In this document: positions 11,168 to 55,994 of the stretch, piece by piece
Layout of the letters: each line of letters starts with the position of its first letter
Numbering within the stretch: position 1 is the stretch's first letter
DNA from: Streptosporangium saharense
GTDB taxonomy: Bacteria > Actinomycetota > Actinomycetes > Streptosporangiales > Streptosporangiaceae
Assembly (NCBI RefSeq): GCF_014203715.1
Contig: NZ_JACHJP010000006.1
Coordinates: 124,001-188,000, forward strand
Direction: 5' to 3'
Length of the DNA stretch: 64,000 nucleotides
The notes under the pieces: generated by a model
What the model saw: the letters and a program-made list of their open reading frames with translations, nothing else
Database searches by the model: none
What the model was told of the DNA's origin: nothing
Translations under genes and position numbers: made by a program

Positions 11168-11247
11168 CAACGCCTCCGTATTTTCAACATCGTCTTTCGC
11201 TTGTTTCAGACGTACCACATGTGTAGCATTCGGGTTGCGTAATTAGA

Positions 11248-11264
11248 CAGGAAACTTTACTAAT
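11248..11264. promoter_or_regulatory. Shared operator copy 3, between GH3 copy 1 and the NRPS1 operon
   Basis: CAGGAAACTTTACTAAT is the clearest copy of the shared motif and is followed by a half-site AAGGTTTCCTT at 11268-11278. It lies between two divergent transcription units and could control both. The rest of the 301-base gap (11265-11468) is a GC-rich leader of the NRPS1 operon in which I see no gene. Confidence 0.7.
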
Positions 11265-11468
11265 AAAAGGTTTCCTTGCGGTCCTATGCCCGTGTCGCCT
11301 GCCCGAAGACAAGTCACCCACGAGGGAGACGGACCGGATGTCGCACACCCGCTCCGCACCGTCGTCTCCCCTCGTCGCAGCGCTGCCCTCTCGCACGTCC
11401 CCGGGTCCCTTTCCTGTGGGAGCCGGGCCACAAGAGCCGGTCAAGACCGAACCTGAGGAGGAGTCCCC

Positions 11469-11753
11469 GTGACCGACCTGTTCTCCCCGGCCAAGGAAAC
11501 CGAGCCCCTGGACCGGGAGGACCCGGCGATCGCCGAAGTACGCGAGATCTGGCAGGAGGTCCTGCGCATCGACGACATCGGTCCCGACGAGGACCTCTAC
11601 GACCTCGGCGGCCACTCGCTGACCATCACGCAGATCATCGCCAGGGCCCGCCGCAGGCTGGGCGTCGAGGTCTCCCTGGACGTCTTCTTCGACAATCCCA
11701 CCGTCGCGGGCATGGCCGAGGAGGTCACCCGGCTGCGGGGAGAGCAGGCGTGA
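11469..11753 (+). CDS. Stand-alone carrier protein 1
   Basis: This 94-residue acyl/peptidyl carrier protein has the phosphopantetheine site DLGGHSLTITQIIAR, with the Ser near residue 48. It starts at GTG with a strong GAGGAGGAG site. The region from DLGGHS to NPTVAGM is nearly the same as in the carrier at 47.4 kb, so the two probably arose by duplication. The stop overlaps the NRPS1 start as GTGA. It is likely to present an acyl or aminoacyl group to the NRPS1 condensation domain. Confidence 0.9.
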   Translation: MTDLFSPAKETEPLDREDPAIAEVREIWQEVLRIDDIGPDEDLYDLGGHSLTITQIIARARRRLGVEVSLDVFFDNPTVAGMAEEVTRLRGEQA

Positions 11754-38063: not shown

Positions 38064-38237
38064 TCAGGACTCCCTCGCGCTGAGCGGACGAAGGTCGGTC
38101 CACACCCTGTCGATGTGGGCCAGGCACTCCTCCTTGGGGCCGGAGAAGCCCTCAAGGCGCCAGCCGTCCGGCAGCCGCCTGCCCTCCGGCCAGACCGAGT
38201 ACTGCTCCTCGTGGTTGACCACGACGTGGTGACTCAT
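38064..38237 (-). CDS. MbtH-like protein
   Basis: This 57-residue protein is an MbtH-like chaperone that binds and activates NRPS adenylation domains. It has the full family pattern: [19 protein letters not shown], the glycine block [14 protein letters not shown], and VWTDLRPLS at the C-terminus. Its ATG overlaps the NRPS2 stop as ATGA. It probably serves NRPS2 and perhaps the other synthetases, as no second mbtH gene is seen in the window. Confidence 0.95.
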
Positions 38238-41200
38238 CTCGCTTCCCCGTTTCCTTGAGGTCCTTGAGGCGTCCGCACGAGACCCTCGGCCTCGTCGTCG
38301 GACAGTTCCGCCAGCTCGGCGATCAGCGTCTCCTCGATCGAGGCGGCGAGCCCCGCCACGGTGCTGTGCGCGAACAGCACGCGGATCGGCACGTCGATCT
38401 CGACGAGGGCGCGGATCCTGGCGATGACGCGGGTGGCCAGCAGCGAGTGCCCGCCGAGGGCGAAGAAGTCGTCGAAGGCGCCGATCTCCTCGATCCCCAG
38501 CACCTCGCCGAACACGTCGGCCACCAGTTGTTCGGCGTCGCTACGCGGGGCGACCCGCTCCCTGGGGGCCGCCTGCGGCGCGGGCAGCGCGGCCCGGTCG
38601 ATCTTGCCGTTGCGGTTCAGCGGCAGCGCGTCGAGCCGTACCCACAGGGAGGGCACCATGTAGGCGGGCAGCGTGGCCCCGAGCAGCCGGGCGAGGTCCT
38701 CCCCCTCGGGAGTGCCGACGATGTATCCGACCAGCACCCCGTCCCGTACGGCGACGGCCGCCTGGCCGACTCCCGGGCAGGCCAGCAGCCGCGCCTCGAT
38801 CTCACCCAGCTCGACCCGGAAGCCCCTGACCTTGACCTGGTCGTCGTCGCGGCCGAGGAACTCCAGTTGCCCGTCGTTGCGCCAGCGCACCCGGTCGCCG
38901 GTGCGGTAGACACGCGAGCCGCCGGGGCCTGGCACGAACCGCTCCGCGGTCAGCGCGGGCCTGCCCAGATAGCCCTGGGCGACGCCCGCCCCGGTGACGC
39001 ACAGCTCACCGGCCACGCCGGGCGGCACCGGCTCGCCGTGCTCGTCCAGGACCAGGACGCGGGTGCCGCCGACGGGCACGCCGATGGGCGGGCGTCCCGG
39101 GGAACCGTCCAGCTCCGCCGTGGTCGCGATGATCGTCGTCTCGGTCGGGCCGTAGGTGTTGACCAGCCGTACCCGGTCGCCGAAGCGCTCCCGCCAGCGC
39201 GCCACGGCGGCCTCGTGCACCTGCTCGCCGCCCAGGATGACCAGCCGCAGCGTGTCCGGCCACGGGACCTCGTCGATCTGGTCGACCAGCGCGTGCCAGT
39301 AGGCAGTCGGCAGGTCGAGGACCGTCACCCCGGCCAGGTGGTCGGGCAGCGTGACGCCGCCGTCGGGAAGCAGTTCGACACGCGCCCCCGCCGCCAGGGC
39401 CGGGTAGATCTCCTCGGCGTGCGTGTCGAAGCTCAGCGAGGCGAACTGCACGACCCGGTCGCCGGGGTGCAGGCCGTACGCCTGACGCATCCACGTCACC
39501 CGCGCGGCGAGCCCGTCGTGCCCGACCACCACGCCCTTGGGGGTGCCGGTCGAGCCCGAGGTGTAGATCACGTACGCGGCGGCGCCGTGCGGCAGAGGCT
39601 CCATCGGCTGTACGGCCTCGGGCACGGCGTCGAGCACGTAGGACGCCCCGCTGTCCTCGACGAGGAAGGCGAGCCGTTCCGCCGGGTAGTCGGGGTCCAG
39701 CGGCAGGTAGGCGGCCCCGGCACGCCAGACGGCCAGCAGCGCCGCGATCGTGTCGGGCGTCCTGCCGAGCCGTACGCCGACCACGTCTCCCGGGGCGACG
39801 CCGCGCGAGCGCAGCAGACCGGCCAGCTCGTCGGCCCTGGCGTCCAGCTCGGCGTAGGTCAGCGCCTGCGGCCCGCAGCCGACCGCGACGGCGTCGGGCG
39901 ACCGCCGTACGGCCGCCGCGACCAGCTCCGGCACCGAGGGCGTCTCGGGCAGGGCGGGTCCCTCGCCCAGACGGGCGAGCAGCGTCTCGTCCTGCTCGGT
40001 GCGCAGCGGCAGCGCGGAGATCCGCTCGTCCGCGGCACCGGGAAGCGCGGTGAGCAGCAGCCGCAGCCGCGCGCCCAGCGCCTCGACCGTCGCCCGGTCG
40101 AACAGCGCGGTGTCGTAGACCAGCGTGAGCAGCAGCTCGTGCTCGTCCTGCCAGGCCTCAAGGGCGAGTTCGAGCTTGGCCTGACGCATGCCGTGCTCGA
40201 ACGCGCTCGCCGTCAGCCCGGCGAAGGCGTCGCCGTCCTGGCCGCCGTCCTGGGTGTGCAGGATGAACATGGTCTGGAACAGCGGGGTGCGGGTGAGGTC
40301 GCGCTCGGCCCGCAGCGCCGTGACCAGCTCCTCGAAGGGGACGCCCTGGTGGGAGAAGGCGTCCAGGACGCTGATCTGGGTGCGTTCGAGCAGTTCGGTG
40401 AAGACCGGGTCGCCGGACAGGTCGCCGCGCAGCACCAGCGTGTCGCTGAGGTAGCCGACGACGGGTTCGAGCTGGACCCGGTCCCTGCCCGCGGTCGCGG
40501 TGCCGACCAGGATGTCGTTCTGTCCGGTGTGCCTGGCCAGCAGCGTCTGGTAGGCGGCGAGCAGCACCATGAACATGGTGGCGCCGTGCCGCCTGCCGAG
40601 CAGGGCCAGCTCACGGGCCTGCTCCGCAGTCAGCCTGACCTCGACCACGTCGCCGTCCCTGGTGCTCGCCGCGGTGCGTGGCCGGTCGAGCGGCAGGTCG
40701 AGCGGGGTGGGGTCGGTGAGCCGTTCGCGCCAGTGGTCGAGCAGCGCGGAGGTGTCGCGCTCCCGCTGCCAGCGGGCGACGTCGCCGAACTGCAGCGGCA
40801 GCGGGGGCAGCTCGCCACCCCCCGAGTAGAGGTGGCCGAGCTCCTCGAAGATGAGGTTGAGTGACCAGCCGTCGCCGAGGATGTGGTGGACGACCACGCA
40901 CAGCACGTGGTCCTCCGCGCCGATCCTGACGAGCACGGCCCGCAGCGGCGGCCTGGTGGCCAGGTCGGCGAAGGGCCGGTTGGTGAGGTCCGCGACGACG
41001 TCGAGCGCCTCGGCCTCCCCGGTGACCGTGACCTCCTCGACGGGCACGGGTCCCGGCGGGTCGATGACGACCGAGGGGGCGCCGTCCACGTCGGGGAAGC
41101 GGGTGCGCAGGCTCTCGTGCCTGGCGGTGACGCCGTCCAGCGCCCTGGCGAGAGCCTGCCGGTCGAGCGGCCCCCGCAGCCGCCTGACCAGGCACATGTT

Positions 41201-44200
41201 GTAGGAGGCGTCGTCCGGGTCGAGCCGGTTGAGGAACCAGAGCCGCTCCTGCCCGAAGGACAGCGGCGGGACGCTCCCCTCCGGCCTCGGCCGGGGTCCC
41301 TCGTCGTCGCGTGCGCCTTGCGCGGGCTCGGCTCCGGTGAGCAGCTCGGCGAGCGCTGCCACACCCGGCCGCAGGAAGACCTCCCTGACCGGCACCTCGA
41401 TCCTGGACAGTACGGCAAGCCGCGCGGTGACCATGGTCGCCAGCAGCGAGTGGCCGCCGAGGGCGAAGAAGTCGTCGTGCGCCCCGACGGAGGGCACGCC
41501 GAGCACCTCGGAGAAGACCTGGGCGACGAGCCGTTCCGCGGGGGTGCGGGGCGCGGTCGCGGCGGTCTGCGGGGCCGCCTCGACGTCGGGAAGCGCCTTG
41601 CGGTCGATCTTCCCGTTGGGGGTGAGCGGGAGCGCGCCGACCTCGACGAGCACGCCGGGCACCATGTAGGAGGGCAGTTGCCGTCCCGCGTGCTCCCTGA
41701 CGGCGTCGAGGAGCTCGGGGTCACCGGGCTCCACCGGTACCACGAAGGCGGCCAGCCGCTCACCGCGCACCGCGACGACGGCCTGCGCGACCCCGGGGCA
41801 GGTGTCGAGGACCGCCTCGATCTCACCGAGTTCGATGCGGTGGCCGCGCAGCTTGACCTGGTTGTCGGTGCGGCCGAGGAACTCCAGGGTGCCGTCGGCC
41901 CGCCAGCGGGCCAGGTCCCCGGTGCGGTAGACGCGCGAGCCGCCGGGGCCGGGCACGAACCGCTCGGCGGTCAGCGCGGGACGGCCGAGATAGCCGGTCG
42001 CCACCCCGTCGCCGCCGATGAGCAGCTCACCGGGCACGCCGATCGGCGCGGGCGAACCGGCCGGGTCAAGCACGTGCACGACGGTGTTGGCGATCGGGCC
42101 GCCGATGACGATCTCGCCGGGCTCCTCGGGAACCTCCCAGGCCGTGGACCAGATCGTCGTCTCGGTCGGGCCGTAGACGTTGACGAGCCGCGCGACCCGG
42201 GGCCGAAGCTCCCTGGCGAGCTGCGGCGCGAGGGGTTCGCCACCGGTCAGCGCCGTCACCCGGGGCAGGTCCCCGCTGAGCAGGACCCGCCAGCCGGACG
42301 GTGTCGCCTGCACGTGGGTGACGCCCTCGTCCCTGACCAGGCGGGCCAGCGCGGCGCCGTCGCGGGCGGTGTCGGCGTCGGCGACGACGATCCTGCCCCC
42401 GGTCACCAGCGGGAGATACAGCTCAAGGGCGGAGATGTCGAACGACAGCGAGGTCAGCGCGAGCCACACGTCCCGCGACGTCGAGCCGACCAGCGTCCGC
42501 ATGGCGAGCAGGAAGTTCGTCAGCGCCCGGTGCGGCACGACGACGCCCTTGGGCCGTCCCGTCGAACCCGAGGTGTAGAGGACGTAGGCGGTGTCGCCGG
42601 GGCGGGGCCGTACGGGAACATCGGCGGTGGCGGGCGGCAGGTCGTCCAGGCTCGTCAGGACCAGGGCGGCGCCGGAGTCCTCGATCACGTAGGCGACGCG
42701 GGCCCGCGGGTAGTCGGGATCGACGGGCAGGTAGGCCGCCCCGCTCATCGCCACGCCGAGCAGCGCGACGACCATGTCCGTCCCGCGTTCCATCTGGACG
42801 GCGACGAGCGCGTCCCGCCCGATGCCCGCGGCGGCCAGCCGTCCGGCCAGGTCGGCGGCCCGCGCGGTCAGCTCGGCGTAGGTCAGCGCGCCGACGGCGA
42901 CGGCGTCGGGGGTGGCGGCGGCCTGGTCCAGCACGAGGTCGACCAGGGTCAGCTCGGGCAGCTCGGCCGAGGTCTCGTTCCACGCGGCCAGCAGGTCCAG
43001 CTCGGCCTCGGGAAGCATGGGCAGCGAGCCGATCGGCGTCTCCGGGGCGGCTACCGCGGCCCTGAGGAGTTCGACGAACCTGGCGACCATCCGCTCGGCC
43101 GTCCTGTGCTCGAACAGGTCGGTGCTGTAGAGCACGGTGCCGAGCACGTGGCCCTCGGGCAGGGGCGTGAGGTCCATGGACAGGTCGACCCTGGCCCTGG
43201 TCCAGCCGTGCGGGAAGGGGGAGGCGTCGAGGCCGGGCAGCGGGTCGCCGGCCTCGCCGTGGGTGTGGAAGGCGAACAGGGTCTGGAACAGCGGGGTCCG
43301 GCTGAGGTCCCGCTCGACGTCGAGTTCGGCGACGAGCCGCTCGAAGGGCACGTCCTGACGGGACAGCGCGTTGAGCACGACCTTGCGGGTGCGCTTGAGC
43401 AGGTCGGCGAAGGTGGGGTCGCCGGACACGTCGCAGCGCAGCGCCAGCGTGGTCGACAGGAAACCGATCATGGTCTCCAGCTCGGTGGTCCCGCGCCCCG
43501 CCGACGGCGTGCCGACGCAGAAGTCCTCCTGCCCCGCGTGCCTGGCCAGCAGCACCTGGTAGGCGGAGAGCAGCACCATGTACGGCGTGCAGCGCGAGCG
43601 CCTCGCCAGCTCGGTGATCCCGGCGGTCAGCTCCTCGTCGAGTTCGAAGTGCACCTCGCCGCCCTCGCCGCCGCGCTGGGCGGGACGGGGCCGGTCGGCG
43701 GGCAGGTCGAGGGGGGAGACCCCGGTCAGATGCTCGACCCACCAGCGCAGCTCGGTGTCCTCGGCGGCGCGTTGCGCGCGGGCGTGCTCGCCGTACTGCA
43801 GGGGCAGGGCGGGCAGGTCGGCGGCGCCGCCACCGGCGTAGAGGATGGCGACCTCGGAGCACAGCACGTTCAGCGACCAGCCGTCGCCGTTGATGTGGTG
43901 CAGCACGACGCAGAGCACGTGGTCGAGCGGGCCCAGCTCGATCAGCGCCACCCGGAACGGCGGCGCGGCGGCCAGGTCGAATTCGGTGTTGGTGACGCCG
44001 GAGACAAGCGTGCGCGCCTGTTCCTCGTCCGCCGCGCTCAGCCGTTCGACGACGACCGGGGCCGGGGGTTCGACGACCGCGACCGGCTCTCCTGCCACCT
44101 CGCGGAATCGGGTGCGCAGGCTTTCGTGCCGCGCGGCGACCGCGGTGAAGGAGGCTTCCAGAGCGGCGGTGTCAAGACGACCTTTCAACCTGTAAACATA

Positions 44201-44323
44201 GGATGTGTTGTAGGTTGAGTCGCCGGGGTCGAGGCGGTGAAGAAACCATAACCGCTGCTGGCCGTACGACAGCGGATACTCCGTCCAGGACTGGCCGGGG
44301 GAAATGGTCTCTGGCTGAAGCAC
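38234..44323 (-). CDS. NRPS2: C-A-T-C-A-T, predicted Gly then a basic residue
   Basis: This 2,029-residue synthetase has two complete modules and no release or epimerisation domain. Motifs: HHINGDGW near 144, [11 protein letters not shown] near 584, LGGHSLL near 958; then HHILGDGW near 1146, [11 protein letters not shown] near 1589, LGGHSLL near 1958. Codes read by eye against GrsA are DILQLGVIWK (one change from a known glycine code DILQLGLIWK) and DTEDIGTIIK; the acidic residues at positions 2-4 fit Lys, Orn, Arg, beta-Lys or diaminobutyrate. GTG 44323 with AAGGAG upstream is preferred to the longer frame. The chain must pass to another protein for release. An operator copy lies upstream. 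Confidence 0.93.
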
Positions 44324-44434
44324 GCAGAGCTCCTTCGGCGGCCGCGGGATCGCACGCACATGAGCACGCCTCGTAAATGGGTATGCGAAAGCCCGCTCCG
44401 CGCATATTTGCCGAGTTGAGCACAGAAGACGAAG

Positions 44435-44624: not shown

Positions 44625-44689
44625 TAGCGACTCGGACGCTCGATACGCGTCGGGTTCTATACATCCGATCTTTGTGGGAGGTTCACTTG

Positions 44690-46138
44690 GTGAACCTGAC
44701 CGTTCCCCAGTTGCTCAGAGACCGGGCGGCAGCCGACCCCGACGGGGTCGCGCTGATCGTGCACGGCTCGGCGTCGCTCACCTATCTCCAGTGGCACGAA
44801 CGGGCGACCGCAATTGCGAACGGCCTGGTCGCCCGGGGTGTGACCAGGGGCGACAGGGTCGGTCTCGTCTTCGGGAACGCGGACTGGGCGGACTACGCGG
44901 CCGCCTTCTGCGGGGTGCTCGCGGCCGGGGCGGTCGCCGTACCCCTCTCCGACCGGCTGGCCGTCGCCGACCTGCGCTTCATGCTGGAGCACTGCGGGGC
45001 GAGCGGTGTCGTCCACGCCGCGGGACTCGACGTGCCCGAGGTCGGCTGGAGCGCGACCACGGACGGGCTGCGTGCGGAAACGTCCTATGAGATCGCCGAT
45101 CCCGCACCCGGGGACCTCGCGCAGATCCTCTACACCTCCGGCACGACGGGCCGTCCCAAGGGCGTCTCGGCCACCCACGCCAACCTCGCCTACGGCTGCG
45201 GCGCCAAGCGCCGTCCCTTCGCGCACTCGCGTCACCTGGTCCACGCCTTCCCGATCGGCACGAACGCCGGCCAGGCCATGCTGATCAACGCCCTGGACGC
45301 GCACCCCGCCGTGGTGACGCTGCCGCGCTTCACCCCGGGCCGCTTCGCCACGCTGATCGAGGCCTACCGGGCGGGCACCGTGTTCCTGGTGCCCGCGATG
45401 GCCATCGAACTGCTCAACGCCGGGGTCGGCGACCGTCACGACCTGTCCAGCGTGCTGCTGCTCGGCTCGGCCGCGGCGCCGCTGCCCTCCGCCGTCGCCG
45501 AGGCGCTCACCGCCGCCTTCCCCAACGCGACGATCACCAACTACTACACCTCGACCGAGGCCGCCCCCGCGCAGACGGTCATGATGTTCGACCCGGAGCG
45601 CCCCGGCAGCGTCGGCCGCGCCATCGCCGGGGGACGGGTCAGGATCGCCACCGTGGACGGCCACCCGCTGCCGCCCGGCGAGACCGGCGAGGTGTGGATG
45701 CGCTCCCCGGCCGCCCCGCGCGCCTACTACGGCGACCCCGACAGCTCCACCTTCCGCGACGGCTGGGTGCGGATGGGCGACCTGGGCCGCATCGACGCCG
45801 ACGGCTACCTCTATCTCATGGACCGTGAGGGCGACGTGGTGAAGTCCGGCGCCTACAAGGTCTCGACCATCCACGTCGAGGAGGCCGTCTACCAGCACCC
45901 CGCCGTGGTCGAGGCCGCCGCCTTCGGCGTGCCCCACCCCGTGCTCGGCACCGTCGTCGCCGTCGCCATGGTCACCAAGGTCCCGCTCGCCGCCGAGGAG
46001 CTGCGCGTCTTCCTCAAGGACAGGCTCGCCCAGCACGAACTGCCCGCGCACGTGACCACCCTCGACGCCCTGCCGCGCAACAACGGCGGCAAGGTGGACA
46101 AGCGCGCCCTGCGCGCGAGCCTGGAGCGGGTGCCGTGA
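44690..46138 (+). CDS. Acyl-AMP ligase (class I adenylate-forming enzyme)
   Basis: This 482-residue enzyme activates a carboxylic acid as an acyl adenylate for transfer to CoA or a carrier protein. It shows the P-loop-like YTSGTTGRPKG near residue 147, TNYYTSTEA, MGDLGRIDADGYLYLMDREGD and the C-terminal lysine in RNNGGKVDKRAL. It is shorter than most acyl-CoA ligases. GTG 44690 with GGGAGG eight bases upstream is chosen; the longer frame runs into the promoter. It overlaps the next gene by four bases, and a carrier protein lies two genes on, so it likely loads that carrier. The acid is unknown. Confidence 0.88.
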   Translation: MNLTVPQLLRDRAAADPDGVALIVHGSASLTYLQWHERATAIANGLVARGVTRGDRVGLVFGNADWADYAAAFCGVLAAGAVAVPLSDRLAVADLRFMLEHCGASGVVHAAGLDVPEVGWSATTDGLRAETSYEIADPAPGDLAQILYTSGTTGRPKGVSATHANLAYGCGAKRRPFAHSRHLVHAFPIGTNAGQAMLINALDAHPAVVTLPRFTPGRFATLIEAYRAGTVFLVPAMAIELLNAGVGDRHDLSSVLLLGSAAAPLPSAVAEALTAAFPNATITNYYTSTEAAPAQTVMMFDPERPGSVGRAIAGGRVRIATVDGHPLPPGETGEVWMRSPAAPRAYYGDPDSSTFRDGWVRMGDLGRIDADGYLYLMDREGDVVKSGAYKVSTIHVEEAVYQHPAVVEAAAFGVPHPVLGTVVAVAMVTKVPLAAEELRVFLKDRLAQHELPAHVTTLDALPRNNGGKVDKRALRASLERVP

Positions 46139-47376
46139 ACGCCGCGCACGAGGTCACGTTCACCCAGCAGGGGATGTGGGTGACCGAGCAACTCGTCGGC
46201 GCGGGCACCGCCTACCACATGCCGCTCCTGGTGAACCTGGACGGCGACCTCGACGCCGACGCGCTGCTCGCCGCGTGCGCCGCGCTCGTCGAACGCCACC
46301 CCATGCTGGGCCAGGTCGTCGTGGAGGCGGAGGGCGGACTGCGGCTCGTCCCCGGCGCCGAGGTGCCGTTGACAAAAGCGAGGGTCACCGGGGGCGTGGA
46401 CGCGGCCGTGCGGGAGGAGATCCTGCGCGGCTTCGACCTGGAGAAGGGGCCGCTGGCCAGGTTCACCCTGCTGGAGACGGCGCCGGAGCGCCACGTGCTC
46501 GTCTTCGTCGCCCACCACCTGGTCTTCGACGGCCACTCCAAGGACGTACTGGTACGTGACCTGGCGGCCCTGTACAACGGGGAGCCGCAGACACCACTGG
46601 CGACCGTCGACCACGGCGCCGTGGAACGGGAGCGGGTCGCCGCCCTGCTCCCCGAAGCACGGGACTTCTGGAAGTCCCGCTGGCAGGATCCGGGCGAAAC
46701 CGTACTGCTCGGACAGGCACTGCGCTCGGGACGGGCGGGTGAGGGACGGGAGCTGAGCTTCACCGCGGAGCCGGCGGCCGTCCCCGGGCTGACCCGTTTC
46801 GAGACGCTGCTGGCAGCCCTGCACGTCCTGCTCAGGGGATACGGAAACGACCGGGTGACCACCGCCGTCGATCTGTCCACCCGGCCGAAGGAGGCGGCGG
46901 GCCACATCGGCCTGTTCGTCAACGAACTTCCCGTCTCCTCACAACCCCAGGTGGAGGAGAGCTTCCTCTCCTTCGCCGTCGCACTCCGCGCGGGGCTGCG
47001 CGAGGTCTACCGGTTCCGTCAGGTTCCGCTGGTCCGCGCGATGCCCCGTATCCGGCCGCACGCCGCGCTGGTTCCCGTCTCCGTCAGCTACCGCACCCGC
47101 CACGACGCCGACCCGGTCTTCACCGGTCTCGACGCCTCGGTGGAGTGGACGGTCTCCAACCACGCGGTCAGAGGCGCCCTGCACCTGCAGTGCGTCGACG
47201 GCCCCGGCGGGCTCGTCGTCAGCCTTCGCTACGACCCCGAGGTGGTTTCGGACGCCCAAAAAGTGGCCGATGACCTGCGTCTTCTTCTGGAACGCGCCAC
47301 CTTCGCCCCCGAACGACCGATCAACACGCTACTGAACGACACTCTGGAGAAGAGATGGGTTCCGTCACCACCCTGA
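46135..47376 (+). CDS. Stand-alone condensation-domain protein 3
   Basis: This 413-residue free condensation domain has an intact catalytic motif HHLVFDG near residue 125, with FTQQGMWVTEQL near the start and LFVNELPV near 265. It overlaps the ligase gene as GTGA and the carrier gene by 22 bases. It could transfer the acyl group held on carrier protein 2 to an amine or hydroxyl acceptor, such as the first residue of an NRPS chain. Confidence 0.88.
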   Translation: MNAAHEVTFTQQGMWVTEQLVGAGTAYHMPLLVNLDGDLDADALLAACAALVERHPMLGQVVVEAEGGLRLVPGAEVPLTKARVTGGVDAAVREEILRGFDLEKGPLARFTLLETAPERHVLVFVAHHLVFDGHSKDVLVRDLAALYNGEPQTPLATVDHGAVERERVAALLPEARDFWKSRWQDPGETVLLGQALRSGRAGEGRELSFTAEPAAVPGLTRFETLLAALHVLLRGYGNDRVTTAVDLSTRPKEAAGHIGLFVNELPVSSQPQVEESFLSFAVALRAGLREVYRFRQVPLVRAMPRIRPHAALVPVSVSYRTRHDADPVFTGLDASVEWTVSNHAVRGALHLQCVDGPGGLVVSLRYDPEVVSDAQKVADDLRLLLERATFAPERPINTLLNDTLEKRWVPSPP

Positions 47377-47585
47377 CCGACCAGGTACGCGAGATCTGGG
47401 AAGAGGTCCTGGGCATCTCGCCGATCGACGAGCACGACGACATCTTCGACCTGGGTGGCCACTCACTGACCATCACCCAGATCATCGCCCGGATGCGCAA
47501 GCGGCTCGACGTCGAGGTCTCCCTTGACGACTTCTTCGACAACCCGACCATCGCCGGGATCGTGGAGTCCCTCGGAGATGACTGA
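47355..47585 (+). CDS. Stand-alone carrier protein 2
   Basis: This 76-residue carrier protein has DLGGHSLTITQIIAR with Ser near residue 37 and is a close relative of carrier protein 1. Its gene overlaps the condensation gene before it and the E1alpha gene after it. This puts it between an acyl ligase and a pyruvate-dehydrogenase-like complex, so its acyl group may come from either. In naphthyridinomycin biosynthesis a comparable complex loads a glycolyl unit onto a carrier protein. Confidence 0.92.
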   Translation: MGSVTTLTDQVREIWEEVLGISPIDEHDDIFDLGGHSLTITQIIARMRKRLDVEVSLDDFFDNPTIAGIVESLGDD

Positions 47586-48513
47586 GATCCTCGACCGGCT
47601 CAGGCTGTCGCGCCTCGGCGACGACGACCTGGAACTACTGCTCCTGATCAGGCACTTCGAGCTGAAGCTTCTTGAGCTGTACGGCAGGGGCGACCTGAAC
47701 GGCACGACCCACACCTGCCTCGGGCAGGAGTACGTCCCCGTCGCGCTCGCCCCGCTGCTCGGCGAGCACGACCACGTCTTCAGCAACCACCGGGGTCACG
47801 GCCACTACCTGGCGAGGTTCCGCGACCCGCACGGTCTGCTCGCCGAGATCATGGGCAGGCAGGGCGCCGTCTGCGGGGGCGTCGGCGGCAGCCAGCACAT
47901 CCACCGGGACCGTTACATGTCCACCGGGGTGCAGGGCGAGAGCATGCCCGTCGCCGCGGGCGTCGCCCTGCACCTCAGGCGTGCCGAGTCCGGCGTGCTC
48001 GCCTGCGTCTACATCGGCGACGGCACCTGGGGGGAGGGCGCCGTCTACGAGGCGCTCAACCTCGCCTCGCTCTGGCGCCTTCCGCTGCTGGTCGTCGTGG
48101 AGAACAACGGCATCGCCCAGTCGACCCCGACCACCGCGCAGATGGCCGGGAGCGTGGCGAGCAGGGCGGCGGCCTTCGGCGTCACCCACCACCTCGTCGT
48201 CTCCACCGACGTCAACGAGATCAGGACCTCCCTTGAGGAGCCGGTCGCCGCGGTGCGCGCGGGCAGGCCACTGGTCGTCGAGTTCGCCACCCACCGGCTC
48301 GGCCCGCACAGCAAGGGCGACGACATCCGCCCGGCCGACGCCGTACAGGCCGCGCGGGACAACGACTGGTACGTCCGCTACGCCAACGACCACCCCGACC
48401 AGTTCCACCGGCTCGACGGGACGATCAGGGCCCGGGTCGAGGCCATCGCCGAGGAGATCGCCGCCCGCCCGCCGTCCCGCTGGGAGGCGTCTTCTTCGTG
48501 GGAGGCGTCGTGA
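47578..48513 (+). CDS. Pyruvate/acetoin dehydrogenase-type E1 alpha subunit
   Basis: This 311-residue subunit binds thiamin diphosphate with E1 beta and decarboxylates a 2-oxo acid or cleaves a ketose. The thiamin motif runs from GDGTWGEGAVYEA to VVENN near residues 160-192, and FSNHRGHGHYLARF is typical of the family. ATG 47578 overlaps the end of the carrier gene. E1 beta and E2 genes follow with overlapping ends. No E3 gene is present, so the common cellular E3 would be needed to reoxidise lipoamide. A place inside an NRPS operon points to making an acyl-carrier unit. Confidence 0.9.
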   Translation: MTEILDRLRLSRLGDDDLELLLLIRHFELKLLELYGRGDLNGTTHTCLGQEYVPVALAPLLGEHDHVFSNHRGHGHYLARFRDPHGLLAEIMGRQGAVCGGVGGSQHIHRDRYMSTGVQGESMPVAAGVALHLRRAESGVLACVYIGDGTWGEGAVYEALNLASLWRLPLLVVVENNGIAQSTPTTAQMAGSVASRAAAFGVTHHLVVSTDVNEIRTSLEEPVAAVRAGRPLVVEFATHRLGPHSKGDDIRPADAVQAARDNDWYVRYANDHPDQFHRLDGTIRARVEAIAEEIAARPPSRWEASSSWEAS

Positions 48514-49484
48514 GAGTCGCGGAGAACCTCAACGAGGCCCTGCACGGGCTGCTCGACGACGACCCCACCGCCTACGTGATCGGCGAGGACGTCCTCGACC
48601 CGTACGGCGGAGCCTTCAAGATCACCAAGGGTCTCTCTGTGCGCTTCCCCGGCAGGGTGATCGGCACCCCGATCAGCGAGGGCGCCCTGACCGGCGTCGC
48701 CGCGGGCCTGGCCCTGACCGGCAACACGGCGGTCGCCGAGATCATGTTCGGCGACTTCGTCGCGCTCGCCTTCGACCAGATCTGCAACTTCGCCAGCAAG
48801 TCGGTCTCCATGTACGGCAGCCGCCTGCCGCTGCGGATGATCGTGCGCTGCCCCAGCGGCGGCGGCAGGGGCTACGGCCCCACGCACAGCCAGAGCATGC
48901 AGAAGCACTTCATCGGCATGCCCGGCCTGTCGCTGTACGAGATGTCGCCCTTCCACGACAACCGCGAGGTCCTCGCCTCGATGCTGGAGCGCGGCGAACC
49001 CTGCCTGTTCTTCGAGGACAAGATCCTCTACACCCGGCAGATGGGTCAGACCGACCCGATGTTCCCCGTGCGCCGCGACGGCGAACTCGCCATCGCCGAG
49101 GCCGACGACAGACCCGACTGCGTGATCATCGCACCGGGCGGCATGGCGCACCGGGCCCTGGCCGCGATGCGGACCCTGCTGCTGGAAGACGAGATCTCCT
49201 GCCGCCTGCTCGTCCCCTCCCGGCTCTACCCGCTGGACGTCGAGGCGCTGCTGCCGTACGTGAACGGCGTCGTCATCGTCGCGGAGGAGAGCACGGCGGG
49301 CGGCACCTGGGGCAGCGAGGTCGCCCACCTCCTGCACGGGCGCGTGTGGGACCGCCTGCGCGGCCCCGTCCGCCTCGTCCACTCGCGGGACAGCGTCATC
49401 CCCACCGCTGCCCACCTGGAGAGCGAGGTCCTGGCCGGGGAGTCCACGATCCACCACGCCGTACGAGAGGCCCTGCGTGGCTGA
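48510..49484 (+). CDS. Pyruvate/acetoin dehydrogenase-type E1 beta subunit
   Basis: This 324-residue subunit pairs with E1 alpha. It has the family blocks IGEDVLDPYGGAFKITKGL, GTPISEGALTGVAAGLA, MFGDFVALAFDQI, and GRGYGPTHSQSM, with the catalytic-loop histidine. GTG 48510 overlaps the E1 alpha stop as GTGA and has GGGAGG upstream. The substrate cannot be read from the sequence; acetoin, branched-chain and glycolyl-forming versions all look alike at this level. Confidence 0.9.
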   Translation: MRVAENLNEALHGLLDDDPTAYVIGEDVLDPYGGAFKITKGLSVRFPGRVIGTPISEGALTGVAAGLALTGNTAVAEIMFGDFVALAFDQICNFASKSVSMYGSRLPLRMIVRCPSGGGRGYGPTHSQSMQKHFIGMPGLSLYEMSPFHDNREVLASMLERGEPCLFFEDKILYTRQMGQTDPMFPVRRDGELAIAEADDRPDCVIIAPGGMAHRALAAMRTLLLEDEISCRLLVPSRLYPLDVEALLPYVNGVVIVAEESTAGGTWGSEVAHLLHGRVWDRLRGPVRLVHSRDSVIPTAAHLESEVLAGESTIHHAVREALRG

Positions 49485-50583
49485 CATCCGCGTCCCCAAG
49501 CTCAACAACAACGACAGCGAGTACCTCGTCGTGGCGTGGCTCGTCGAGGACGGCAAGCCGGTCAGGGCCGGTGAGCCCGTCGTGGTCCTGGAGACCTCCA
49601 AGGCGGCCGACGAGCTGGAGGCCGAGGAGTCCGGCTACCTGCACCACGACGCCGCGCTCAACACCTGGGTCACCCCCGGCGCCCTGCTGGCCAGGATCAC
49701 CGAGGGCCCACAGGCCGCACCCGCACCCGCGCCTGCTCCGGAGGCCGCCCCGGCTGGCACCTCGGCGCCGCGTGACGCCGTCATCACCGAGCCCGCCCGC
49801 GCCCTCATCGCCGAACTCGGCATCACCCCCGAGCAGGTCGCCTCCCTGGGCCTGGGCGTCGTCCGGCGCGCAGACGTGGAACGCCTGGCGGGAGCCGTAC
49901 CGGAGCAGGAGCAGCCGGCCGTACCCCAGGAGACCAACAGGCACGTGCTCTCCCGGGTGCAGCGGGCCGTGGCCAGGGCCGTCACCACCTCGCACAGCAC
50001 GATCCCCGCCGCCTACACCGTCGTGAAGTTCGACGTCGGCCCCGCCCTGGCACGCACCAAGGACCTGAGCAGACAGGTACGCAGACCGGTCGGCCTCGCC
50101 GAACTGTTCGTGCAGGCCGTCGCCACGCTGCACCCCACCTTCCCGCTGTTCTTCGCCGCGGTCGACGGCGACGGCGCCAGGCTCTCCGACGCCCCGCGCG
50201 TCGGCGTCACCTTCGACATGGGGGAGGGGCTCTACGTCCCGGTGGTCCGCGAGACCGGGACGCTCAGGGACATCGCCGACACGCTGATGCGCTACCGCCT
50301 CGCGGCGGCGGAGGGCGACTTCAGGGAGCGGGACCTCACCGGCGCCAACATCGCCGTCACCCTGCACACCGACGCCGATGTCGTCCTCGCGGTCCCCTTC
50401 GTCTTCCCGGGGACGGTCTGCGCGCTCGCGATCACCTCGCCACAGCCCGAGCTCGCCCTCGGGGAGGACGGCGCGGTGACGACGAGGACCGTCGCCAACA
50501 TCGGCCTCGCCTACGACCACCGACTGATCAACGGCCGGGACGCCGCGCTCTTCCTCGCCGCCCTCCGGATGGAGCTGCAATGA
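49477..50583 (+). CDS. Dihydrolipoamide acyltransferase-like E2
   Basis: This 368-residue protein has one N-terminal lipoyl domain (LETSKAAD, lipoylated Lys near 42), an Ala/Pro-rich linker, a short subunit-binding-like segment (TEPARALIAELGI) and an acyltransferase domain of about 210 residues. The catalytic motif reads DHRLINGRDAA; most E2 enzymes have DHRxxDG, so the aspartate is Asn. It overlaps E1 beta by eight bases and NRPS3 by four. It would move an acyl group from lipoamide to a thiol acceptor, here perhaps the carrier protein encoded three genes upstream. Confidence 0.88.
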   Translation: MADIRVPKLNNNDSEYLVVAWLVEDGKPVRAGEPVVVLETSKAADELEAEESGYLHHDAALNTWVTPGALLARITEGPQAAPAPAPAPEAAPAGTSAPRDAVITEPARALIAELGITPEQVASLGLGVVRRADVERLAGAVPEQEQPAVPQETNRHVLSRVQRAVARAVTTSHSTIPAAYTVVKFDVGPALARTKDLSRQVRRPVGLAELFVQAVATLHPTFPLFFAAVDGDGARLSDAPRVGVTFDMGEGLYVPVVRETGTLRDIADTLMRYRLAAAEGDFRERDLTGANIAVTLHTDADVVLAVPFVFPGTVCALAITSPQPELALGEDGAVTTRTVANIGLAYDHRLINGRDAALFLAALRMELQ

Positions 50584-53500
50584 CCGAGACAACGCTGTCG
50601 GACGCCAAACGGGCACTGCTCGCCCAGCGGCTCCGGCGCCGGGAGGAGTCCCGGACCATCACGGCCCGGGACCCCTCCGTCACCCCGCCCCTGTCCCACG
50701 CGCAGGAACGCCTGTGGTTCCTTGAGCAGTACCGCCCGGGAACCACCACCTACACCGTCCCCGTCGCGGTGCGCCTGTACGGCGAGCTGGACGAGGACGC
50801 GTTACGCCGCGCCCTCGACGAGATCGTCACCCGGCACGAGGCCCTGCGGATGCGCTTCCTCACCACCGAGGACGGCACCCCGGAGCTGGTCGTCGACGAG
50901 CCCCGCCCCGCCGAACTGCGCGTCACCGAGGCCGCCGACCTGGACGCCGCCGTCGAACTCATCGACGAGGAGGTCGCGACGCCGTTCGACCTGGAGACCG
51001 GTCCGCTGTTCAGGACCCTCCTGGTACGGCTCGCCCCCGACGACCACGTCCTGCTGCTGGCCGCCCACCACACCGTCGTGGACGGCTGGTCCATCGACCT
51101 GATGATCCGCGAGCTGCTCGCGCTGCACGACGGCAAGACCCTCAAGCCCGCCCAGGTCGGCTACGGCGACTACGCCATCTGGCAGCGCGGACGCGACCAC
51201 CGCCGCGAGGTCGACCACTGGCGCGACAAGCTCGCCGGGCTGCCCGCCATCGAGCTGCCGACCGACAGGCCGCGCCCCGCCGAGCAGGGCTACGAGGGCG
51301 CCTCCCTCGACTTCTCCATCGACGCCGACCTCACCGCCCGTCTGGCGGAGCTGGCCAAGTCCTCCGGCGCGACGCCGTACATGACGTTGATGGCGGCCTT
51401 CCAGGTGCTGCTGGCGCGCTACTCGGGACAGTCGGACTTCGCGGTCGGCTCCCCGGTCGCCGGGCGGGGGCTGCCCGAGCTCGACGACGTCGTCGGCATG
51501 TTCGTCAACACGCTGGTGCTGCGCGCCGACCTGGCCGACGACCCGGCGTTCACCGACTTCCTGGCCCGCACCCGCGAGACGGCGCTCGACGCCTTCGCCC
51601 ACCAGGAACTGCCGTTCGACCAGCTCGTCAGCGAACTGAACGTCGTTCGCGACGTCAGCAGGTCGCCGCTGGTCCAGGTCACCTTCGCGCTGCAGAACTA
51701 CAAGGCGGGCGAGGAGGACGGGCGCGTCTCCTACGTCTCGCTGCCCGTCAGGACCACCCGCTACGACCTGGCCCTGTACCTCTTCGAGAGCCCCGACGGC
51801 CTGGTCGGCAACTTCACCTACAACACGGCGCTGTTCGACCCGGAGACCGTCGAGCTGCTCGGCTCCCGCTTCGACACCCTGCTGCGCTCCATCGTCGAGT
51901 CCCCGGACACCCGGGTCGGCGAGCTGTCGCTGCTGTCGGAGGAGGAGAGGGAACTCGTCCTGGGCTTCGGGTCGAGCACCGACCTCGTCCCCACCGGCCA
52001 CGACCTGCTGCACGACCTGGTCACCGCGCAGGCCGCGCTCACCCCGGACGCCCCGGCCGTGACCCACGAGGACGACACCTACACCTACGCCCAGCTCGAC
52101 GAGCGCTCCGCCCGGATCGCCGCCCTGCTGCGCGGCCGGTACGGCATCGGCCCCGACAGCAGGGTCGGCGTGCTGCTCGACCAGTCCGTGGACGTGGCCG
52201 CCGCGCTGCTCGGCGTGCTGAAGTCCGGCGGCGCCTACGTGCCCCTCGACCCCAAGCAGCCCCGCGACCGCCTCGCCTACATGCTTGAGGACTCGGGGGC
52301 GGCCGTGGTCGTCACCACCGAGGACCTGGCCGACCTGGTCTCCGGCCCCCCGGTCGTCACGCTCGACGCCGAGACGCTCGACGAGACCTCCTTCGAGGAC
52401 CCCGGCGTCACCCCGGAGAACCTGGCCTACGTCATCTACACCTCCGGCACCACCGGGCGTCCCAAGGGCGTCGGCGTGCAGCACCGGCAGGTGCTGAACT
52501 ACCTGGCCGGGGTCAGGGAGCGCTTCGCCGTCGAACCGGCGGGCGTCTACACGCTGCTGCAGTCGCTGTCGTTCGACTTCGGTGTGACGATCTTCTACCT
52601 GTCGCTCATGACCGGTGGCGAACTGCACCTGGTCGATCCGCAGGCGCCGGTCGAGGAGCTCGCCGAGCAGCTCGGCTGTACCGACTACATCAAGATGACG
52701 CCGTCCCACCTCGCGTCGCTGCTCGCCGACCCCGACGTGAGCCCCGCCGAGCTGCTGCCGCGCAAACTGCTCGTCCTCGGCGGCGAGGCCTCCAAGTGGA
52801 GCTGGGCCCGCGAGCTGACCGAGCACACCACGGTCATCAACCACTACGGCCCCACCGAGGCCACGGTCGGAATCTCCACCCACGCCGTCACCGACGAGGC
52901 CGAGCGCGCGCTGAACCTGCCCATCGGCAGGCCGCTGCCCGGCGCCAGGCTCTACGTGCTCGACGAGCACCTGCGGCTCGTCCCGCCCGGTATGACCGGT
53001 GAGATCTATCTCGGTGGCGACCGCCTCGCCCGCGGTTACCTCGGCCAGCCCGGCCTGACCGCCGACAGGTTCCTGCCCGACCCGTACGGCGAGCCGGGCG
53101 CCCGCATGTACAAGACCGGTGACCTGGGCCGATGGCTGCCCTCCGGGGACCTGTGCTTCCTGGGCCGCCGCGACCTGCAGGTCAAGGTCCGCGGTTACCG
53201 GGTCGAACTGTCGGAGATCGAGTCCGTCCTCACCGACCAGCCCGGCGTTGCCCACGCCGTCGTGGACCTGCGCGACGACCGTCTCATCGCCTACCTTGTT
53301 GGGGAGAAGACGACAGTCGGCGAACTGCGCACCGCGCTCGGCGAACGCCTTCCCGAATACATGATCCCGGCACGCTTCGTCTGGCTGGACGAGCTGCCAC
53401 TGAAGTCGCACGGCAAGGTCGATCGGGCCAGGCTGCCCGAGCCCGACGAGGAACGCCCCGACCAGGAGGCGGGGTTCGTCCCGCCGGAGACACCGGTCGA

Positions 53501-55994
53501 GGAGGCCATCGCCTCGGTGTGGGCCGCGGTGCTCGGCCTGGTCCAGGTCGGCGTGCTGGACGACTTCTTCGACCTGGGCGGACATTCGCTGCTCGCCGCA
53601 CAGGTGGTGGCCCGCCTGCGGAAGGCTCTCCCCGCAGGCGGGCGCCAGGTCAGCATCCTGGACCTGTTCAAGTACAGGACCGTGCGTGAGCTGGCCCAGA
53701 TCGTCGAGTCGGGCGAGAGCGGCCCGCGCATGCTGCTGCACCGCCTCACCCCGGCCCGCACCACCACCTCAACCCTCGTCTGCGTGCCGTACGGCGGCGG
53801 CAGCGCGGCCATCTACCAGCCGCTTGCCGACGCGCTGCCCAAGAAGTGGGCGCTGCACGCGGTCGCGGTGCCCGGCCAGGAGATGGGCCTGATCGAGGAG
53901 ACCCGCCCGGTGGCCGAGGTCGCCGAGGGGTGTGTCGAGGAGATCCTCAAGGGGGTCAAGGGCCCGCTGACGCTCTACGGCCACTGCGGTCTCGGCGTCA
54001 TGCTGACCGTGGAGATCGCCAGACGCCTTGAGGCGGCGGGCCGCCAGGTCGACGCCATCTACCTCGGCGGTGTCTTCCCCTTCGCCAGGCCGCAGTCGGC
54101 GCTGGCGTGGATGGCGAACCTGACCGACAAGCTCCGCAGCGACCAGGTCTGGGCCAACGCCCTGCAGGCCGCCGGTCTCGACGTCGACGACCTCGGCCGC
54201 GAGGAGCTGAAGCTGGTCATCGACAACCGCCGCAAGGGCACCAGGGAGGCCGAGCGCTACTTCACCCGCCTGTTCGAGGAGGGGGTCGAGCCGCTCAAGG
54301 CGCCGATCATCTCCGTGGCGGGCGAACGCGACCCGGCTACCGAGTTCTACCAGGAGCGCTTCCGCGAGTGGCACCTGCTGACGAACTCGACCGCGGCGGT
54401 CGTGCTCGACGAGGCGGGCCACTTCTTCCTCAAGTACCGAGCCCAGGAACTGTCGGTCATCCTCACCGGCACTCACAAGGCCATCGCCTCCGGCGAGACC
54501 GAGCCGCTGCGCCGTACGGCACGCTCCACGTGGTGGCTTGAGGGCGTCTCGGACCGGGACCCCTCCGCGCCCGCCTCTCCCGAGGCCGCGGAAAGCGCGG
54601 CGCCGAGGACCGGGCCGAAGCCGAGCATGCGGCGCTTCGCCGCGGTGGCGGCGGGCCAGCTCATCTCGATCGTCGGATCGTCCCTTACCGAGTTCGCGAT
54701 CCCCCTGTGGATCTACATCCACACCGGCTCGCTCGTCAGGTTCGCGCTGTTCGCGGTGCTGGCGCTGGTGCCCGGCATGCTGGTCGCCCCGATCGCGGGC
54801 ACCCTCGTGGACCGCTACGACCGGCGAACGATCATGCTCATCGGTGACATCGGGGCCTTCGGCACCCAGTTCATCATGGGCGTGCTGTTGTGGACCGGCA
54901 ATCTGGACGTCTGGCAGATATACCCGCTCCTGGTGGTGCTGTCGGTCGCGCTCACCTTCCAACGGCTCGCCTACAACTCGGCGATTCCACAGTTGGTCCC
55001 CAAGCGGTTCCTCGGCCACGCCAACGGCGTCGTCCAGATGATCACCGGTACCGCCCAGCTCATCGTCCCGCTGGTCGCCGTCGGCCTGATGTCGCTGATC
55101 GGCCTGGAGGGCATCCTCGCCATCGACGTCGCCTCCTACGTCTTCGCCATCTCGGTCCTGCTGTTCGTCCGCTTCCCCAAGACCATGGCCTGGAAGCGCA
55201 GGGAGACGCTGGTCGCGGAGATGGTCGAGGGCTGGAAGTTCTCCTGGGGCATCAAGGGCTTCCGCGCGATGCTGTTCTTCTTCGCCTTCCTCAACGTCTT
55301 CCTGTCCCCGCTGTTCCTGCTCATCTCCCCGCTGGTGCTGGGCTTCGCGACCCTTGAGGACGTGGGCCGGGTCTCCTTCTTCGGCGGCCTGGGCGTCTTC
55401 CTCGCCGGAATGGCCATGACGATCTGGGGCGGTCCCAGGCGTCAGAGGCTGCGCGGCGTGATGCTCTCCACCCTCGTGCTGTCGGTCTTCTGCCTGATCG
55501 TCGGCTTCCAGCGCAACCTGGTCATCGTCTCCATCGGTGTCTTCGGGATGTCGTTCTGGCTGAGCATGCTCAACGGCGTCTACGCCACGATCATCCAGGT
55601 CAAGGTGCCGCAGCGCTTCCACGGCCGGGTCATCGCCCTGAACACGCTCATCGCGTGGTCCACGCTGCCCATCGGCTTCGGCCTGGTCGCGCCGTACGGC
55701 AGTGCGATCTTCGACCCGCTGATGATGCCGGGCGGCGCGCTCGCCGACACCGTCGGCGCCGTGATCGGCACGGGCCCGGGACGCGGCGTCGGCCTGATGT
55801 ACGTCCTGTTCGCCTTCGCCATCGCCGCCATCGCGCTGGTCGGGATGCGGACTAGGACGCTGTCCAGGTTCGACGAGGAGGTCCCGGACGCGCTCCCCGA
55901 CGACCTGGTCGGCTTCCAGACCCTCCAGCGTCGTCAGGAGTCGCTCGCCGAGGTCGTCCCGATCACCACCAAGAAGCAGCCAACCGGAGTGTGA
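50580..55994 (+). CDS. NRPS3: C-A-T-thioesterase fused to an MFS transporter
   Basis: This 1,804-residue protein joins a complete module, a release domain and a membrane exporter. Condensation: HHTVVDGW near 161. Adenylation: YTSGTTGRPKG near 619; code DFTKVGHVGK, close to the aspartate code DLTKVGHVGK. Carrier: LGGHSLL near 1000. Thioesterase (about 1055-1310): GHCGLG near 1134, so the nucleophile is Cys instead of Ser, with GERDP and AGHFF as likely acid and His. MFS domain: about 1350-1780, 12 hydrophobic segments, DRYDRRTIML loop, and GGALADTVGAVIGTGPGRG as in the stand-alone exporter. The frame is open through all joins. The fusion would tether the last step of assembly to the membrane. 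Confidence 0.93.
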   Translation: MTETTLSDAKRALLAQRLRRREESRTITARDPSVTPPLSHAQERLWFLEQYRPGTTTYTVPVAVRLYGELDEDALRRALDEIVTRHEALRMRFLTTEDGTPELVVDEPRPAELRVTEAADLDAAVELIDEEVATPFDLETGPLFRTLLVRLAPDDHVLLLAAHHTVVDGWSIDLMIRELLALHDGKTLKPAQVGYGDYAIWQRGRDHRREVDHWRDKLAGLPAIELPTDRPRPAEQGYEGASLDFSIDADLTARLAELAKSSGATPYMTLMAAFQVLLARYSGQSDFAVGSPVAGRGLPELDDVVGMFVNTLVLRADLADDPAFTDFLARTRETALDAFAHQELPFDQLVSELNVVRDVSRSPLVQVTFALQNYKAGEEDGRVSYVSLPVRTTRYDLALYLFESPDGLVGNFTYNTALFDPETVELLGSRFDTLLRSIVESPDTRVGELSLLSEEERELVLGFGSSTDLVPTGHDLLHDLVTAQAALTPDAPAVTHEDDTYTYAQLDERSARIAALLRGRYGIGPDSRVGVLLDQSVDVAAALLGVLKSGGAYVPLDPKQPRDRLAYMLEDSGAAVVVTTEDLADLVSGPPVVTLDAETLDETSFEDPGVTPENLAYVIYTSGTTGRPKGVGVQHRQVLNYLAGVRERFAVEPAGVYTLLQSLSFDFGVTIFYLSLMTGGELHLVDPQAPVEELAEQLGCTDYIKMTPSHLASLLADPDVSPAELLPRKLLVLGGEASKWSWARELTEHTTVINHYGPTEATVGISTHAVTDEAERALNLPIGRPLPGARLYVLDEHLRLVPPGMTGEIYLGGDRLARGYLGQPGLTADRFLPDPYGEPGARMYKTGDLGRWLPSGDLCFLGRRDLQVKVRGYRVELSEIESVLTDQPGVAHAVVDLRDDRLIAYLVGEKTTVGELRTALGERLPEYMIPARFVWLDELPLKSHGKVDRARLPEPDEERPDQEAGFVPPETPVEEAIASVWAAVLGLVQVGVLDDFFDLGGHSLLAAQVVARLRKALPAGGRQVSILDLFKYRTVRELAQIVESGESGPRMLLHRLTPARTTTSTLVCVPYGGGSAAIYQPLADALPKKWALHAVAVPGQEMGLIEETRPVAEVAEGCVEEILKGVKGPLTLYGHCGLGVMLTVEIARRLEAAGRQVDAIYLGGVFPFARPQSALAWMANLTDKLRSDQVWANALQAAGLDVDDLGREELKLVIDNRRKGTREAERYFTRLFEEGVEPLKAPIISVAGERDPATEFYQERFREWHLLTNSTAAVVLDEAGHFFLKYRAQELSVILTGTHKAIASGETEPLRRTARSTWWLEGVSDRDPSAPASPEAAESAAPRTGPKPSMRRFAAVAAGQLISIVGSSLTEFAIPLWIYIHTGSLVRFALFAVLALVPGMLVAPIAGTLVDRYDRRTIMLIGDIGAFGTQFIMGVLLWTGNLDVWQIYPLLVVLSVALTFQRLAYNSAIPQLVPKRFLGHANGVVQMITGTAQLIVPLVAVGLMSLIGLEGILAIDVASYVFAISVLLFVRFPKTMAWKRRETLVAEMVEGWKFSWGIKGFRAMLFFFAFLNVFLSPLFLLISPLVLGFATLEDVGRVSFFGGLGVFLAGMAMTIWGGPRRQRLRGVMLSTLVLSVFCLIVGFQRNLVIVSIGVFGMSFWLSMLNGVYATIIQVKVPQRFHGRVIALNTLIAWSTLPIGFGLVAPYGSAIFDPLMMPGGALADTVGAVIGTGPGRGVGLMYVLFAFAIAAIALVGMRTRTLSRFDEEVPDALPDDLVGFQTLQRRQESLAEVVPITTKKQPTGV

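Follow-up and report, generated by a model that had tools for sequence, protein, structure and literature searches.

A peptide-releasing NRPS module that runs in frame into an MFS transporter domain in Streptosporangium saharense and other actinobacteria

In Streptosporangium saharense, a nonribosomal peptide synthetase (NRPS) module with condensation, adenylation, carrier and thioesterase domains (C-A-T-TE) continues without interruption into a 12-helix domain of the major facilitator superfamily (MFS), in a single frame that opens with an ATG at position 50580 of the window (the whole 64,000-nucleotide stretch of DNA analyzed here), closes with the stop at 55994 and encodes 1,804 residues. 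Since the same layout is found in many soil actinobacteria, product synthesis and product export appear physically linked. Our preferred reading, to which we give a probability of about 0.6, is that here the releasing module of a small-peptide assembly line carries its own MFS exporter. Little is understood of how a producer lets peptide natural products out of the assembly line and the cell without being harmed itself, and a natural fusion of releasing enzyme and exporter makes the coupling of release and export directly testable within one protein. The fusion has been kept across several actinobacterial families, in places with a kinase or methyltransferase added, and it provides a sequence handle to clusters with ObiF-like Cys thioesterases, whose two characterized relatives make strained reactive rings.

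Results

The fused protein and its surroundings are laid out in Table 1. A GGAG sequence lies shortly 5′ of the ATG, all Pfam domain scores on the protein exceed the curated cut-offs, and the carrier motif GGHSL is seen in its sequence. C, A, T and TE follow one another in this order with their active-site residues, as in a terminal NRPS module, and the MFS part combines 12 transmembrane (TM) helices in the MFS fold with motif A, as is proper to the superfamily. The uninterrupted passage from module to transporter claimed by the sequence-only reading is thus borne out, and the membrane-tethered releasing module that it envisaged is real, conserved and furnished with an exporter domain that looks intact. 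Its phrase “final module” suits the window by architecture but does not carry over to every homologue: at six loci (L034, L051, L057, L060, L089 and L091), the fused gene is itself followed, on its own strand, by one more gene for a C-A-T module.

Table 1. Features of the fused gene and of the genes around it (window coordinates).
Feature	Coordinates	Strand	Remarks
DMFA2_C-type protein and C-like protein	34495..37691	-	
C-A-T-C-A-T synthetase	38234..44359	-	
AMP-dependent acyl ligase	44672..46138	+	first gene of same-strand run
Stand-alone condensation-type protein	46135..47376	+	Pfam
E1 alpha, E1 beta and E2 of 2-oxoacid dehydrogenase	47524..50583	+	Pfam
C-A-T-TE-MFS fusion protein	50580..55994	+	1,804 aa; ATG overlaps E2 stop (ATGA)
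Condensation domain	50688..51956	+	aa 37-459, Pfam PF00668
Adenylation domain	52026..53417	+	aa 483-946; Pfam AMP-binding 483-821, AMP-binding_C 879-946
Carrier (T) domain	53505..53702	+	aa 976-1041, Pfam PF00550 (PP-binding)
Thioesterase	53772..54464	+	about aa 1065-1295; Pfam Thioesterase 1065-1218; ObiF1-like
TWWLEGVS	54528..54551	+	aa 1317-1324; linker motif, predicted beta strand
Variable low-complexity linker up to TM1	54552..54626	+	
MFS domain	54627..55859	+	12 TM helices; Pfam MFS_1 1357-1694; motif A GTLVDRYDRR (aa 1407-1416)
Conserved C-terminal tail F-D-x-x-V-P-D-A-x-P-D-D-L-V-G	55869..55913	+	

It might be objected that two genes have been joined by error near 54.5 kb, or that an internal start yields a separate MFS protein, and a conserved Met just before TM1 in 48 of the 62 aligned fusions could be cited in support. 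We find this hardly credible. Another contig of this genome carries a further C-A-T-TE-MFS gene (1,809 aa, 51% identical over its length), and a homologue scan of 84,980 species, with one genome per species, led to 61 loci from named records, 60 of which have TE and MFS in a single open frame; the exception, L071, is a 4.1-kb contig that stops short of the MFS part. Moreover, an SD-like sequence before the Met preceding TM1, or before the codon aligned with it, is present in only 4/62, below the background of 11.7%. The open frames and the second copy counter the sequencing-caused fusion for which the sequence-only reading had allowed, and the low SD-like count leaves the internal start unsupported as well.

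Mapped across the actinomycetes, the fusion recurs in several actinobacterial families. The 61 loci include Streptosporangium, Planobispora, Acrocarpospora, Herbidospora, Nonomuraea and Sphaerisporangium, and also Streptomyces, Kitasatospora, Pseudonocardia, Kibdelosporangium, Dactylosporangium, Nakamurella and others. At E <= 1e-40, a TE-MFS query had matches in 129 of the 297 genomes of the family and in 24 of the 394 of the class, counts that include the source genome and may take in stand-alone MFS genes; 4 of 396 phylum genomes were matched, one being the source genome and the other three contributing stand-alone MFS genes. The 55 rows of the class search merge to 40 places, and 35 of these have TE and MFS in one frame (a tally made by hand from the result rows, like that of 56 out of 65 given below); the remainder consist of one contig end (G463:C251), one half-MFS remnant (L084) and three stand-alone MFS genes. 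Because the genome searches scored 2-7 candidates per genome, copy numbers are lower bounds. Among the matches listed for the family search, no open frame is shorter than 1,347 aa. One fused copy is carried by a megaplasmid of Streptomyces clavuligerus and another by an Embleya replicon; a second Embleya record and two more from S. clavuligerus were matched as search rows only. The arrangement can also change or decay, given that L083 is without an A domain and that L084 has half an MFS without a TE: there (10610-11577), the NRPS frame stops after the T domain, the half MFS follows, no TE match is found, and the locus is possibly decayed.

The catalytic triad of the thioesterase reads, by alignment, as Cys1136, Asp1251 and His1281. 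The nucleophile is Cys in 60 of the 62 aligned fusions, window included, and in 7/7, 2/2 and 20/20 further fused loci (sets that may share species); the idea that the fusion always follows a Cys-type TE therefore holds nearly throughout, but L064 and L067 have Ser. The catalytic Asp is found in all 62, and in the window it aligns with the Asp of GGQDP in ObiF1. As a single sequence, the TE has ObiF1 as its best PDB match (1.4e-19), and a profile built from 11 of the 62 aligned fusions again puts ObiF1 (6n8e) at the top (3.7e-40, 141 bits), with the next entry at 86.5 bits and 8w2c, presumably SulM, at 58 bits. According to the two published reports (PMC6668435, PMC11298585), the hallmarks common to the ObiF and SulM TEs are a Cys nucleophile and an Asp in a RifR-like position, and the window TE has both. 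Since type II TEs share this Asp position, it is not specific to the ObiF and SulM enzymes, and its presence together with Cys does not prove ring formation. A nucleophile elbow seemingly one residue longer than that of ObiF1 was dropped from consideration, as it rests on gapped alignments.

A TE-only search of the 394 class genomes (E <= 1e-20, at most 6 candidates scored per genome, 29 loci read afresh) returned 65 matches, of which 56 run in frame into an MFS, 8 lack the fusion and one (L158) is truncated by the end of its contig. Those without the fusion are no more than 36% identical to the TE of the window; two of them (L133 and L145) have a GHC motif, and in the other six the motif pattern recognized none. 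With no unfused TE above 36% identity, the fusion coincides with one TE subfamily in this sample. One of the unfused cases is unusual in its own right: L145 (5003-8281, minus strand) encodes C-T-TE-TE, with tandem thioesterases, the first of which is 35% identical to the window TE and bears the GHC motif.

From residue 1283, late in the TE, to the start of TM1 at residue 1352, the distance ranges from 48 to 148 residues among 44 of the 62 aligned fusions, the set used for the linker and structure comparisons after redundant sequences were dropped. Within this linker, TWWLxxVS is conserved (first Trp in 61/62, second Trp in 53/62, Ser in 57/62) and is a beta strand in an AlphaFold2 model, with a pLDDT of about 91 over the stretch; as the MFS part shows no strands, the TWWL strand presumably docks on the TE sheet. 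Apart from the motif, the linker is a variable, low-complexity sequence, and dN/dS over its whole length is 0.27-0.85 in eight pairs. Such variation in length is easier to reconcile with a flexible tether than with a fixed channel and argues against a rigid tunnel from TE to MFS.

Twelve membrane-length helices can be read from the helix list of the AlphaFold2 model of T-TE-MFS (pLDDT 86.3, pTM 0.83), which agrees with the topology first proposed from the letters. The best structural neighbor of the MFS model is SotB (6kkk; Z 35.3, rmsd 2.8, 372 aligned), and the other top-ranking neighbors are likewise solved MFS transporters, with a good share of the structures described as inward-facing; the comparison is silent on the TE fold, because its listing holds only MFS chains. 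By sequence, an MFS profile found no PDB chain at E <= 0.01. Three Arg of motif A and the Thr and Trp of TM1 are invariant in all 62 aligned fusions, and the Asp and Gly of motif A are present in 61. For eight hand-picked pairs, MFS dN/dS is 0.06-0.45, similar to the values for A and TE. Purifying selection, kept motifs and a complete predicted fold make the fused MFS domain look alive. Among NCBIfam models, the best for this part is the H+ antiporter TIGR00900, whose 174.8 bits fall below the curated cut-off of 319.6 and thus denote resemblance only; that transport runs outward is what we infer from family membership.

The stand-alone MFS at 16.0 kb, to which the sequence-only reading likened the fused exporter, is a relative (33% identity over 396 aa) but no close copy, and it falls outside the fused clade; identity and tree position together rule out a recent copy. 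That gene is overlapped by 8 bases by the end of a C-A-T-reductase NRPS (both within 11276-17339), and the pair adjoins methyltransferase and FAD enzyme genes. In a tree of 46 fused MFS domains (36 of the 62 aligned fusions and 10 others, all from outside L133-L161) and a small number, 12, of stand-alone ones, the fused domains form one clade with FastTree support of 1.0, so several independent fusions are unsupported in the sampled set. Among unfused sequences, the nearest relatives found reach 39% (Trichormus), 38% and 37% identity. Three MFS genes on cyanobacterial plasmids (39, 35 and 32%) lie 14, 32 and 1 bases 3′ of an NRPS gene, and two other unfused cyanobacterial relatives adjoin siderophore genes. 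The Trichormus protein (WP_011316899), encoded 14 bases after its NRPS gene, belongs to the same subfamily as the fused MFS but is a separate protein. An unfused MFS directly 3′ of an NRPS would be the expected precursor layout, and the simplest origin to suppose is a joining of adjacent NRPS and MFS genes. Distances between TE and MFS correlate with r of 0.81, which gives no sign of a closer tie than between other domain pairs (0.75-0.86); the chain has largely been inherited as a unit.

The genes from about 34.5 to 56 kb look like one cluster with three NRPS modules. Among the ORFs of this interval scanned with Pfam there is no other transporter, and a GntR regulator lies 3′ of the fusion. 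The C-A-T-C-A-T synthetase probably represents the upstream modules, and the 2-oxoacid dehydrogenase genes could possibly supply an acyl group; within the fetched flanks, E1/E2 genes stand beside the fusion at 8 of the 61 named loci. Of the loci that were clustered, 22 contain the C-like family, window included. The DMFA2_C protein (34495-36330) is a dimethylformamidase-like protein in an NRPS cluster, as also at L015 and L052.

With the code positions taken as in GrsA, the 10-residue A code of the window reads DFTKVGHVGK, which we take to be Asp-like. The 62 aligned fusions divide into 41 with DFTK[VIL]GHVGK, 13 with DVWH[IV]SL[VI]DK, 4 with DLYNMSLIWK and 4 others, and we regard the three named codes as Asp-like, Ser-like and Cys-like, respectively; the Ser-like and Cys-like groups are nearly identical to known codes for these residues, which suggests that the register is correct. 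A lactone would be less obvious for the window, with its Asp-like code, than for the Ser-like members. Four loci with the Cys-like code (L051, L053, L057 and L060; Pfam for L051 only) contain a separate stand-alone MFS gene, so that export need not depend on the fused MFS alone. Three of these (L051, L057 and L060) also have a carrier-bearing gene upstream (in L051 a KS-AT-carrier PKS by Pfam), an extra C-A-T gene and a KS-AT type gene; L053 shares with them, by clustering, both the KS-AT type gene and the second, stand-alone MFS.

In some loci the chain extends beyond the MFS. At L153-L157 and L160 (Pfam: L153, L155 and L157), it runs on into an APH-family phosphotransferase domain, so that L153 (1908-8660) reads C-A-T-TE-MFS-APH. 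A search of the 297 family genomes for the APH domain found it in 18 genomes, in 14 of them in frame with an NRPS and in the other 4 as a separate short frame (325-511 aa); apparent internal stops in four APH matches are the ordinary C-terminal stop. The A codes of six APH-bearing fusions are DVWHCGLVDK in five and DVWHVSLVDK in one, both of which we take to be Ser-like. At L082 (4389-8192) and L086 (4012-7053), both on the minus strand and on incomplete contigs, the chain runs on into a SAM-methyltransferase domain, with Pfam applied to L082. As all 62 aligned fusions have at most 54 residues after the conserved tail, such extensions are a minority form. In some lineages, the steps that follow release appear to be gathered in a single polypeptide, and an APH or methyltransferase domain after the MFS suggests a wider chain for release, modification and export.

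Discussion

If the fused protein is a releasing module with its own exporter, the peptide delivered by the upstream modules would gain one residue, probably Asp in the window, and would then move to the TE Cys. The TE would free it, by hydrolysis or cyclization, beside the membrane, and the fused MFS would take up the product from the cytosolic side and export it, with the proton gradient as the probable driving force. The flexible tether would raise the local concentration of product at the exporter, and the fusion would anchor the assembly line at the membrane and fix a 1:1 ratio; we propose that little free product would therefore accumulate.

Perhaps the fusion secures co-expression and a 1:1 ratio and nothing else, with the product diffusing away and release and export functionally uncoupled. 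We regard this as possible if rather doubtful. A long and variable linker would suit it, as would the unfused relatives, in which the MFS is simply the next gene downstream; but conservation of the TWWL motif within that variable linker speaks against it, and since none of the 65 TE matches (394 genomes, at most 6 candidates each) above 36% identity is unfused, splitting seems to be disfavored. It is unlikely, in our view, that the MFS serves mainly as a membrane anchor or scaffold for the assembly line, with transport secondary or lost, even though the second MFS gene in the four Cys-code loci would accord with such a role and CesCD tethers a cereulide synthetase domain to the membrane without any fusion (PMC7527721). 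For anchoring, one helix would suffice, whereas motif A and the TM1 residues have been kept and MFS dN/dS is low.

MFS proteins can transport in either direction, and LplT serves Aas by import or flipping; the fused MFS might likewise bring in or flip a substrate (an acyl acceptor or a lipid) for the synthetase rather than export the product. The 16.0-kb MFS does show a weak similarity to an acyltransferase model of the Aas kind (NCBIfam PRK08633, 1.3e-8), but the best NCBIfam model of the fused MFS is the below-cut-off antiporter TIGR00900, and the five unfused cyanobacterial relatives adjoin NRPS or siderophore genes, so that we consider import highly improbable. A more ambitious version of the preferred reading, in which the fused chains are one-chain machines that release, protect and export reactive products and so shield the producer from free electrophile, strikes us as decidedly unlikely. 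The ObiF-like Cys-TE would in that case close a strained electrophilic ring (a beta-lactone if the residue is Ser, a thiolactone if it is Cys, and some other activated ring if it is Asp) and hand its product straight to the tethered MFS exporter; in some lineages, phosphorylation by APH or methylation would add a protective step within the fusion.

Database records may name NRPS/MFS fusions; in searches of the open-licence PMC literature, we found no description of one. Known systems share single aspects of the arrangement. The poly-lysine synthetase Pls resembles the fusion in being an NRPS-like enzyme and a membrane protein in a single chain, but its helices belong to the synthetase and not to an MFS transporter, and it is not known to have a TE. 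In cereulide biosynthesis, the CesCD transporter is in physical contact with CesAB, keeps one NRPS domain tethered at the membrane and is described as crucial for biosynthesis; unlike the fused MFS, CesCD is of ABC type, is encoded by separate genes and makes its contact non-covalently through a C domain (PMC7527721). ObiF1 of obafluorin biosynthesis (C-A-PCP-TE-MLP; 6n8e) likewise has C-A-T-TE with an extra domain after the TE, together with the Cys nucleophile and RifR-like Asp, but it ends in an MbtH-like domain instead of an exporter, and its product is known; its TE forms a beta-lactone, which for the fusion TE would be a possible product (PMC6668435). The monobactam-forming SulM TE shares the Cys nucleophile and the unusual placement of the Asp, with a Gln-Cys-Asn motif where the fusion TE has His-Cys-Gly (PMC11298585).

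A separate, minor observation concerns the second fused gene of S. saharense (L009, 2672-9150), which adjoins a C-A-T gene and a TauD dioxygenase gene. The TauD neighbor gives this copy a resemblance to rimosamide and detoxin clusters that we note as a lead only, and L087 is another fused gene with a TauD gene nearby.
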